From positions 365,501 to 429,500 of the forward strand of contig NZ_CP086111.1 in the NCBI RefSeq assembly GCF_016806835.2: DNA of 64,000 bases. Direction: 5' to 3'. This DNA comes from Skermanella rosea. GTDB taxonomy: Bacteria; Pseudomonadota; Alphaproteobacteria; Azospirillales; Azospirillaceae. The position numbers and the translations under genes were made by a program. Shown in pieces: positions 23,835-25,432 of the stretch (its first letter is position 1; every line of letters begins with the position of its first letter). The notes under the pieces are model-generated. The model was given only the letters and a program-made list of their open reading frames with translations. It ran no database searches and was not told where the DNA came from.

Positions 23835-24150
23835 TCACGAGGGCGGAGCGCCGGGAACGGGATGGATGTTCCCGGCGTTCAGCGCAAGCCGCAGTTCGTC
23901 ATGCTCGAACGCGGTCTCCATGCGGTCGATCTCCGATGGCCTGACGCCGAGGGACGCCGCGACGGTCCGCCAGCGCGAGGTCGCGGAGGCAACCTCGCGG
24001 ACGATCGCATTGGCCCTCGACAGGGACAGGCCGAAATACCCGGCATTCTCAAGAGCCAGTTCGATGGAGCAGGAACTGTTCGGTCGAGTCGACGTCGGAC
24101 CCGGATGTACGGCCCAGGTCGGCATGAACCTCGATCTCGCTCCCGCTCAT
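23835..24150 (-). pseudogene. Internally deleted hipA (type II toxin-antitoxin kinase) remnant
   Basis: Directly after hipB, an ATG at 24150 overlaps the hipB stop (ATGA) and begins MSGSEIEVHADLGRT, which looks like a HipA N-terminus (EVxxDLGGT). Homology stops after about 15 residues. About 40 bases on, in another frame, from about 24068 to the stop at 23835, comes a HipA C-terminal tail: ELALENAGYFGLSLSRANA, REVASATSRWRTVAASLG, then RPSEIDRMETAFEHDEL. The whole kinase core (about 1 kb) is missing, including ATP-binding and catalytic residues. A 96-codon reading frame (23835-24125) covers the tail but its first 18 residues are junction sequence. Family assignment rests on remembered HipA signatures. 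Confidence 0.75.
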
Positions 24151-24464
24151 TCCTGGAGCGCCTTTTTCATCCGGACGCGCTTGGGCAACCGCTCGTTCTC
24201 CAGATCCTCGCCAAGCTGGTCGTCGGCCGCCAAGTCGCCCAGCCTGCCGATCAATCCCAACGCCTGCATCACCGACGCATAGATGCCGAACGACACGGCG
24301 GGATCGCCCTGCTCCACGCGGGCCAGAGTGCCGCGCGACACGAAGGCCCGCGCCGCGATCACTTCCATCGTGAGGCGGCGGCGCAGGCGTGCCTTCCGCA
24401 GATCGGTGCCGATCTGGCGGATGGCCCGCTTCGCGGCCAGAGTCGGGGTGTGCGGCGTCGCCAT
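24147..24464 (-). CDS. XRE-family antitoxin/regulator, HipB-like
   Basis: 105 aa. HTH_3 domain at about residues 14-70 (IGTDLRKARLRRRLTMEVIAARA, FVSRGTLARVEQGDPAVSFGIYASVMQALGL). An acidic/basic C-terminal tail follows, as in HipB proteins that fold over the toxin. The frame is intact although the toxin gene behind it is deleted. The palindromic array upstream (24468-24523) fits autoregulation. It may persist as an orphan repressor. Confidence 0.85.
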   Translation of the reverse strand: MATPHTPTLAAKRAIRQIGTDLRKARLRRRLTMEVIAARAFVSRGTLARVEQGDPAVSFGIYASVMQALGLIGRLGDLAADDQLGEDLENERLPKRVRMKKALQE

Positions 24465-24467
24465 GAT

Positions 24468-24523
24468 GCTTAATGCGAGCTTGAGAGAACTTTAAGCAGC
24501 TTAAGGTGCGCTCAAGCTCGCAT
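24468..24523. promoter_or_regulatory. Nested palindromic operator array of the hipB promoter
   Basis: Outer perfect 13-bp inverted repeat ATGCGAGCTTGAG (24473-24485) / CTCAAGCTCGCAT (24511-24523) and an inner palindrome TTAAGC-A-GCTTAA (24492-24504) share the same centre at 24498. A further GCTTAA at 24468-24473 lies next to the start codon. Half-sites GCTT(A/G)A recur at 11-20 base steps, so bound dimers would lie on one face of the helix. Just upstream of the hipB ATG (24464), as expected for an autorepressor. Confidence 0.65.
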
Positions 24524-24615
24524 ATTTTCAAGACAGGACCTGTGCGTATGGAGCAGGGGGAATTTTGCCTCATCTGCGCTGTGTGCCGGAGGTGGACCAA
24601 AGGTAAGCAGTAAGC

Positions 24616-24741
24616 TTTGGCCACAGATGCACGCAGATAAACCCAGATAAAAATTGATCGTTGATGCGAGCCATGTTCCGCATCATTCAAAAATTGTCTT
24701 CTACATTTATCTGACTTTATCTGTGTTCATCTGTGGCCAAA
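24616..24741. repeat. MITE-like palindromic element with 35-bp inverted termini
   Basis: Left arm 24617-24651 and right arm 24706-24740 are inverted copies matching at 31 of 35 positions, beginning TTGGCCACAGATG and including CAGATAAA repeats; one more complementary base lies outside each end. The 54-base centre has its own stem TGATGCG/CGCATCA (24662-24668, 24679-24685). It has no coding capacity and is strikingly AT-rich for this genome. No target-site duplication was visible. Lies between hipB and the hydrolase gene, beside the hipA deletion. Confidence 0.7.
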
Positions 24742-24754
24742 CACCTTTGAACTT

Positions 24755-25432
24755 TCACCGCGCCAACGCCCCCACAACCTCGTCCACTTCGGCGGTCCAT
24801 CCCACGATCGCCCCCTGCGCCCGGATCATCTCCAGCGTCGCCTGCTTGAAGGCGGGGAAGTAGCTTTCCGTCGCGTCCTCGACCAGCAGGCATTCGAAGC
24901 CGCGGTCATTGGCTTCGCGCATGGTGGTCTGGACGCAGACTTCCGTCGTGACGCCGGCGAACAGCAGGTGGGTGATGCCCCGCTCCGCCAGGATCTCGCC
25001 CAACGGCGTGGCGTAGAAGGCGCCCTTGCCGGGCTTGTCGATCACGATCTCCCCCGGCAGCGGGGCGAGGTCGTCCACGATGGCGTTGCCGGGCTCGCCC
25101 TTGACCAGGATGCGCCCCATCGGGCCTTCGTCGCCGATCCGCAGGTCGGAGGAGCCGCGCAGGCGCTTCGCCGGGGGGCAGTCAGACAGGTCCGGCTCGT
25201 GCGCCTCGCGGGTGTGGATGATGGTCAGGCCGGCCGCCCGGCAGCCGTCGAGCAGGCGGCGGACATGGGGCACCAGCGCCGCCAAGGGGGCCACGTCGTT
25301 GCCCAGGGCCTCGCCGAAGCCGCCGGGCTCGATGAAGTCCCGCTGCATGTCGATGACGACCAGCGCGGTGCGGTCAACCGGAAAGGCGAAGGGGTAGGGC
25401 TTGGCGGTCGGCAGCGTCAGGACATCGGTCAT
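24755..25432 (-). CDS. Cysteine hydrolase, isochorismatase-like (second BiuH paralogue, substrate unknown)
   Basis: 225 aa. Isochorismatase-fold amidohydrolase with the D-K-C triad at D28 (VVIDMQRDF), K133 ([10 protein letters not shown]) and C166 ([11 protein letters not shown]). The same length as the enzyme at 26978-27655 and clearly related to it along its length ([48 protein letters not shown]), but differing near the substrate end ([11 protein letters not shown] in place of [13 protein letters not shown]). Starts 2 bases after the ABC ATPase stop, so it is the last gene of the transporter operon. Probably hydrolyses a second urea-like amide; the actual substrate cannot be read from sequence. 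Confidence 0.88.

Follow-up and report, generated by a model that had tools for sequence, protein, structure and literature searches.

REPIN/RAYT systems, as described in the excerpts of PMC3116915 and PMC3733652 used here, comprise a small gene of a nuclease family with short palindromic repeats on both sides, and gene-less inverted pairs dispersed in intergenic DNA; their distribution is patchy, and the type of repeat tracks the enzyme. According to the excerpt of PMC3733652, one end of the stem-loop carries a GTAG or CGTC tag. We have compared with these systems a palindrome at 24616-24741 of the window, by which we mean the whole stretch of 64,000 nt analysed, on contig C1 of the 7.76-Mb genome of Skermanella rosea (G000). 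It is probable, in our assessment, that this element represents, without the gene, a dispersed palindrome whose gene-bearing form holds the gene of a GxxExxY nuclease between such arms, and that the nuclease spreads the copies. The family of this protein, TIGR04256, is without a function in the databases used. The open-licence literature, in the portions available, yielded no link between GxxExxY, PF13366 or TIGR04256 and repeats, and the decamer motif strings were not found in it.

Anatomy of the palindrome and its family in Skermanella rosea

The initial annotation described a MITE-like element of 126 bp with inverted ends matching at 31 of 35 positions, far more AT-rich than the genome and with an internal stem. 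The palindrome is real, and our recount gives 36-nt inverted arms, complementary at 32 of 36 positions (89%), with 54 bp between them. Its GC content is 0.397, compared to 0.689 for the whole window; GC this low is reached by 41 of the 63,874 overlapping 126-bp segments, a count that includes those overlapping the element itself. What had been overlooked is the tandem-decamer make-up, three units per arm: after TTTGGC come three decamers in tandem, of the form CNCAGATNNA, and the ends of the element read TTTGGCCACAG...CTGTGGCCAAA. At up to three mismatches CACAGATNNNCNCAGATAAA has four matches in the window (0.09 expected), every one within the element. The features of the element and its neighbourhood are:

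24147..24464, minus strand: neighbouring ORF of 105 aa, an Xre/HipB-type HTH regulator look-alike recognised by eye; outside the element
24616..24651, plus strand: left arm, TTTGGC followed by CACAGATGCA (24622-24631), CGCAGATAAA (24632-24641) and CCCAGATAAA (24642-24651)
24652..24705, no strand: AT-rich centre of 54 bp, diverging faster than the arms between orthologs
24662..24685, no strand: internal stem of the centre, TGATGCG (24662-24668) pairing with CGCATCA (24679-24685), from fold and sequence
24706..24741, minus strand: right arm, in minus-strand reading TTTGGC followed by CACAGATGAA, CACAGATAAA and GTCAGATAAA
24755..25412, minus strand: neighbouring frame ending at 24755, cysteine hydrolase/isochorismatase-like as recognised by eye, start approximate; outside the element

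The RNA fold of the element, which includes the internal stem reported earlier, has a predicted energy of −57.9 kcal/mol (z −8.7; 0 of 200 shuffles equally stable), and that of the other strand is also very stable (z −8.5). By eye, the outer stem is not followed by a run of T, and AT-richness extends over the long arms. Rfam, applied in E-value mode to 23900-25300, gave no family over its gathering threshold (best 25.1 bits versus 136), and a known RNA family was rejected, nothing coming near that threshold. A chance palindrome was rejected on arm matching, fold z, pattern enrichment and the multiple genomic copies.

A second inverted repeat, with 25-nt arms 1 nt apart, lies at 24473-24523, immediately upstream of the Xre-like ORF, of which it is perhaps the operator; an inverted repeat resembling it seems present in G004. 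The element had also been placed next to a hipA deletion. The sister genome G001 does have an extra 1.6 kb relative to the window near 24082-24112 (G001:C1:4970591-4972180, L076); the ORF inside it carries HPFTDGNGR, which we take to be a Fic signature or Fic-like motif, and no hipA could be identified there, so that the suggested deletion is not confirmed.

With one mismatch allowed, the two-unit pattern CACAGATNNNCACAGAT has 66 matches in the S. rosea genome, all on C1, compared to none for the reversed-pattern control. The family occupies at least 29 regions, as 27 of 30 fetched regions hold clusters of at least three units and a further two (L037, L042) hold inverted pairs of a variant unit; the single-copy case for which the initial annotation had allowed is excluded. 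A search with the element itself returned 67 match rows, 65 of them on C1 and two on other contigs at E 6.4, and a second locus matches it at E 3.7e-9. Two main forms occur in this genome, with centres of 10-22 bp or 40-77 bp, together with a variant whose middle unit is CGGCGAT; among intact arm pairs the centre ranges from 0 to 77 bp. The two arms of a copy match at 24.4 of 27 positions, compared to 23.0 under random pairing (0 of 5000 permutations, 22 pairs). This within-copy matching is less marked in G002 (192 of 5000, 12 pairs), and in G001 it falls short of significance (547 of 5000, 13 pairs). Several elements (L041, L033, L060, L104, L106 and L117) have paralogous stretches of 0.9-1.8 kb next to them, and the start of one L041 ORF resembles, by eye, a TIR-domain protein.

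Orthologous sites, arm decay and other inserts

We screened 59 genomes, S. rosea included, with the three-unit pattern. Eleven match, with at least five matches in six of them (G000, G001, G002, G011, G012 and G014), and the pattern is absent from two of five congeners, so that sharing is patchy. Relatives of the palindrome occur in unrelated bacteria, as the initial annotation had it. At sites orthologous to that in the window, the element is present in G001 and absent in G004, and in G002 the right half alone is left, joined to the 3′ end of a group II intron. The window element is probably old, because it is common to G001; most copies are likewise old, because 23 of 30 S. rosea regions have flanks in common with element-bearing regions of G001 or G002 (seven do not).

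To judge from these sequence comparisons, the element may nonetheless be one that moves. The L054 element of S. rosea is absent from G001 and G002, where a shorter unrelated stretch takes its place; the elements at L090 and L099 of G001 correspond to decayed remnants in S. rosea and G002 and to nothing in G004; and the L034 site of S. rosea holds another palindrome in G002 (L236) and G001 (L251), with ends GTAGGTCGG...CCGACCTAC. That other palindrome is reminiscent of GTAG-tagged REPs. The target-site duplications and clean empty sites by which the initial annotation expected a mobile element to be recognised were not seen at the window site, L034, L054, L090 or L099, nor was a clean insertion or an excision; these sites differ by replacement or decay. 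Eight plasmid records have a relative, all below 60% identity and with no usable empty site, and the plasmids hold no near DNA match of the element.

These sites bear on the possibility of a conventional MITE, mobilised by a DDE or other known transposase whose autonomous parent has been lost or was not found. The element resembles a MITE in being short, non-coding and multicopy, with terminal inverted repeats, AT-richness and patchy spread; it differs in its tandem-decamer arms, in a centre varying from 0 to 77 bp, in that no target duplication was seen at the compared sites, none of which offered a clean empty site, and in that the copies examined have no matching transposase and, where a gene lies between matching arms, it encodes a nuclease and not a DDE enzyme. 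We therefore regard a conventional MITE as highly improbable. The earlier description as a MITE-like non-autonomous element stands as far as multicopy, palindromic and non-coding go, and is unsupported in that no DDE-type autonomous transposase with matching ends was found in the copies examined.

Orthologous copies also inform on whether pairing of the arms is maintained. The arms of L031 decay one-sidedly, the left arm doing so in both G001 and G002, and such decay in two species argues against strict selection for pairing. In two of 16 S. rosea-based pairs (L028/L102 and L032/L087), the centre is inverted between orthologs while the flanks keep their orientation. At L062 (G002:C1:6250500-6254000), ∼360 bp extra comprise a repeated centre and a nested GTAGG-type stretch. 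A bidirectional transcription terminator or structured RNA (e.g. an RNase III substrate), kept for the expression of the neighbours, would fit the very stable fold of both strands, the matching of arms within copies, and the position of copies, often after gene ends in the alignments read; we nonetheless rate it very unlikely, given the one-sided arm decay, the centres inverted at two loci, the missing element at the G004 site, and a 10-bp period for which a terminator would have no use. The build of the arms from decamers and their linkage to the nuclease, described below, also make a terminator pair, which had been named as an outcome against mobility, a disfavoured reading of the sequence.

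The arms receive other inserts. At L058 and L059 the arms are interrupted by 2 kb of inserted DNA that encodes a group II reverse transcriptase (TIGR04416, E 1e-103); the first 100 bases of this intron occur eight times in G001 and eight times in G002, with one partial copy in G003 and none in S. rosea or G004. All 16 intron junctions read in G001 and G002 come after CNCAGA or CACGGA, 13 in CAGAT arms, two in CGGAT arms and one (L281) in a weaker half-match. In these two sister species the intron thus inserts mainly in the arms, whichever of the two repeat types they have, and the decamer arms double as a reusable landing pad for it. The loci are:

Group II intron in or at arms, G001 and G002: L058, L059, L084, L093, L094, L096, L118, L141, L274-L294

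ORFs between CAGAT-type arms at L063 and L069 of G014 look like later insertions, and we presume from their appearance that they are IS630-type transposases.

The GxxExxY gene between the arms and its pairing with unit type

A small ORF lies between inverted CAGAT arms in S. rosea itself (G000:C1:5364330-5364775; L049, L132), where the arms are of the same kind as those of the window element, in G002 (L061/L140), and in G012, which belongs to another genus (L068/L149). At L141 of G001 the downstream arm is intact and the start of the upstream arm is replaced by the intron end; in G014 (L131/L159) CAGAT-type arms surround the GxxExxY gene, but those that flank it point the same way, with an inverted score of 11.0. 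The element had been described as having no coding, which is right for the window copy and wrong for those other copies that enclose a gene.

The enclosed proteins match TIGR04256 ‘GxxExxY’ at E 1e-38 or better (three proteins scanned) and PF13366 at E ∼1e-37, over their full length; in Pfam at E ≤ 0.01, PF13366 (PDDEXK_3) is the sole match of the linked ORF. Among 52 aligned GxxExxY proteins, the GxxExxY motif, an Asp, an ExK, a Gln and an Asn-Phe are invariant. An AlphaFold2 model of the ∼125-aa protein has pLDDT 94, and the sole Foldseek entry that it retrieves at E ≤ 0.001 is 4ic1 (SSO0001; E 8e-5), which we take to be a Cas4. VIA-align superposes the model on 4ic1 with Z 10.3 (3.2 Å over 98 residues), on BpuSI with Z 8.3, and on Hjc (1gef) with Z 7.4, where values below 8 may reflect a common fold only. 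By sequence, no PDB chain is related to the protein (best E 0.48). PADLOC gave weak Cas4b matches alone for L152 (E 0.0027 and 0.0039) and none for L061, and PHROGs gave one unknown family for L152 (E 0.0013) and none for L061.

For a broader sample, contigs were scanned with a seven-sequence alignment and the best 80 of at least 575 confirmed relatives were kept, so that near relatives of the query are over-represented; the sample spans Proteobacteria, Desulfobacteraceae-like groups, Planctomycetota, Acidobacteria, Bacteroidetes, Chloroflexi, Verrucomicrobia, Treponema, Firmicutes and others. For 74 loci a local inverted-repeat score could be computed from the two 250-bp flanks, the other six being without enough flank. 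A score of at least 13.5 is reached by 58 of the 74 GxxExxY genes (16 fall below), compared to six of 182 other ORFs of the same loci and two of 1480 shuffled flanks; 57 of the 74 exceed the 99th percentile of 2470 same-locus windows. Within the arms the units repeat in tandem, with a best internal period of 10 in 38 of the 58 and of 9 in 17. Among 20 further loci, hand-picked mainly from array genomes, 17 reach 13.5; the direct-orientation score equals or exceeds the inverted one in eight of these 20, so inversion is common, not universal.

Gene and arrays also co-occur. GxxExxY scores over the curated cut-off in 15 of the 59 screened genomes, among them all six array-rich ones (at least five arm matches), while no genome among the 44 lacking it is array-rich (Fisher p 1.1e-4). 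Across 398 genomes of the phylum, split by a count made by hand into 29 with at least three C.C.RAT triplets and 369 without, GxxExxY exceeds the cut-off in 21 of 29 array genomes versus 43 of 369 others (p 1.5e-12); two of the 29 (G186 and G281) are overlapping runs at one place that look like coding repeats, and a reversed control pattern also reached at least three in four genomes (G075, G082, G106 and G378). Within the dominant family f61 the association is weak (20/26 versus 25/48, p 0.047), and outside that family it is not significant (1/3 versus 18/321, p 0.17). We take phylum co-occurrence as support and not proof, weaker than physical linkage.

The unit type of the arms follows the clade of the protein. 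Of 120 GxxExxY entries whose arm units were assigned by fixed patterns, 89 could be typed, 29 had untyped arms and two had unreadable motifs; a few typed entries are one locus twice (L131/L159), and L174 and L175 are near-identical. GxGF/GxGY proteins have T- or A-ending units in 72 cases and G-ending units in one (L201), whereas GxGL proteins have G-ending units in 16 cases and others in none. On a tree of 114 proteins, from which duplicates were mostly removed and in which columns are few and many forks unresolved, 87 labelled rows need three unit-type changes, compared to a shuffled mean of 19.6. The association spans unrelated unit sequences, of CAGAT, CGGAT, CGAAT, AGGAT, CAAAG and CGGAG types; clade and unit type share phylogeny. 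In the five genomes with both clades (G012, G271, G295, G082 and G105), each of the 16 typed genes is flanked by units of the type proper to its clade; the arms thus go with the gene rather than with the genome. Within family f61, GxxExxY genes with differing arm units (L302, L305, L307, L313 and L314) seem to lie in one gene neighbourhood, where the next ORF, at the loci read, starts MSSILNEIAAYKRDW or similar.

These pairings bear most directly on a reading in which the arms form a repeat in its own right, whether of the host or selfish, the GxxExxY genes merely settle there as introns and insertion sequences do, and the nuclease moves nothing. We consider this unlikely. It accords with the group II intron at 16 junctions, with the IS630-like ORFs between G014 arms, with gene-less copies being more numerous than gene-bearing ones, and with the eight of 29 array-bearing genomes that have no GxxExxY match, several of which are incomplete. 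Against it stand the association across unrelated unit sequences and the tracking of protein clade by unit type even within single genomes; a passive settler would need to have chosen a matching repeat each time.

Proposed spread of the palindromes and comparison with known systems

A nuclease gene between palindromic arrays, together with dispersed gene-less palindromes, parallels the layout of REPIN/RAYT, and we therefore propose that GxxExxY proteins process and spread their own arrays. The proposal builds on the repeat family, its arm anatomy, the gene between the arms, the clade pairing, the conserved nuclease residues, the patchy distribution and the absence of the element at some orthologous sites. 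From these we infer binding to the units, cleavage, copying and mobilisation in trans. The nuclease would recognise the 10-bp units, one per helical turn and on the same face of the DNA, in both inverted arms, which may be extruded as a hairpin or cruciform when recognised. It would then cut at the arms, and the cut or its repair would copy the palindrome to new intergenic sites; gene-less copies could thereby spread in trans, as is thought for REPINs with their RAYT.

Tentatively, we extend this to a class of mobile repeat, so far unnamed and found in many phyla, in which a minimal Cas4-like GxxExxY nuclease would read 9-10-bp units one helical turn apart and disseminate palindromes with or without its own gene. 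The clade-specific unit codes (e.g. CNCNGAT in the Phe clade and CNCNNAG in the Leu clade) would then make the class a natural series for protein-DNA recognition, and its footprint would be the CACAGAT/CACGAAT/CACAAAG repeats scattered over environmental genomes. If true, the proposal would give an origin for the CACAGAT-, CACGGAT-, CACGAAT- and CACAAAG-type repeats scattered over unrelated genomes, and a non-HUH, non-DDE palindrome-dispersing enzyme would be a second, independent solution to the REPIN/RAYT task. It would also supply the GxxExxY protein family (TIGR04256) with a first hypothesis to work from, and the correspondence of clade to unit makes recognition directly testable.

Among known systems, the likeness to REPIN/RAYT lies in the small nuclease gene between palindromes, the dispersed gene-less pairs, the patchiness, and the tracking of enzyme by repeat. 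The enzyme here is of the PD-(D/E)XK type, whereas RAYT is an HUH Y1 tyrosine transposase (TnpA_REP); the arms here are three or four tandem 9-10-bp units, whereas the REPIN/RAYT repeats have a 20-40-bp stem-loop; and the element ends here are without a GTAG or CGTC tag. The gene between the arms belongs to the GxxExxY family (TIGR04256; PF13366, PDDEXK_3), which is named for its motif. Its predicted core fold is common to Cas4 and lambda-exonuclease-type PD-(D/E)XK enzymes and to the Hjc Holliday-junction resolvase, from which the GxxExxY protein differs in its length of ∼125 aa and in its 11-19% identity in aligned rows. We group these loci as ‘GxxExxY-linked decamer-array palindromes’, a class defined here, in which we place the window element for its three CNCAGATNNA units per arm and for the like arms that flank a GxxExxY gene in the same genome.
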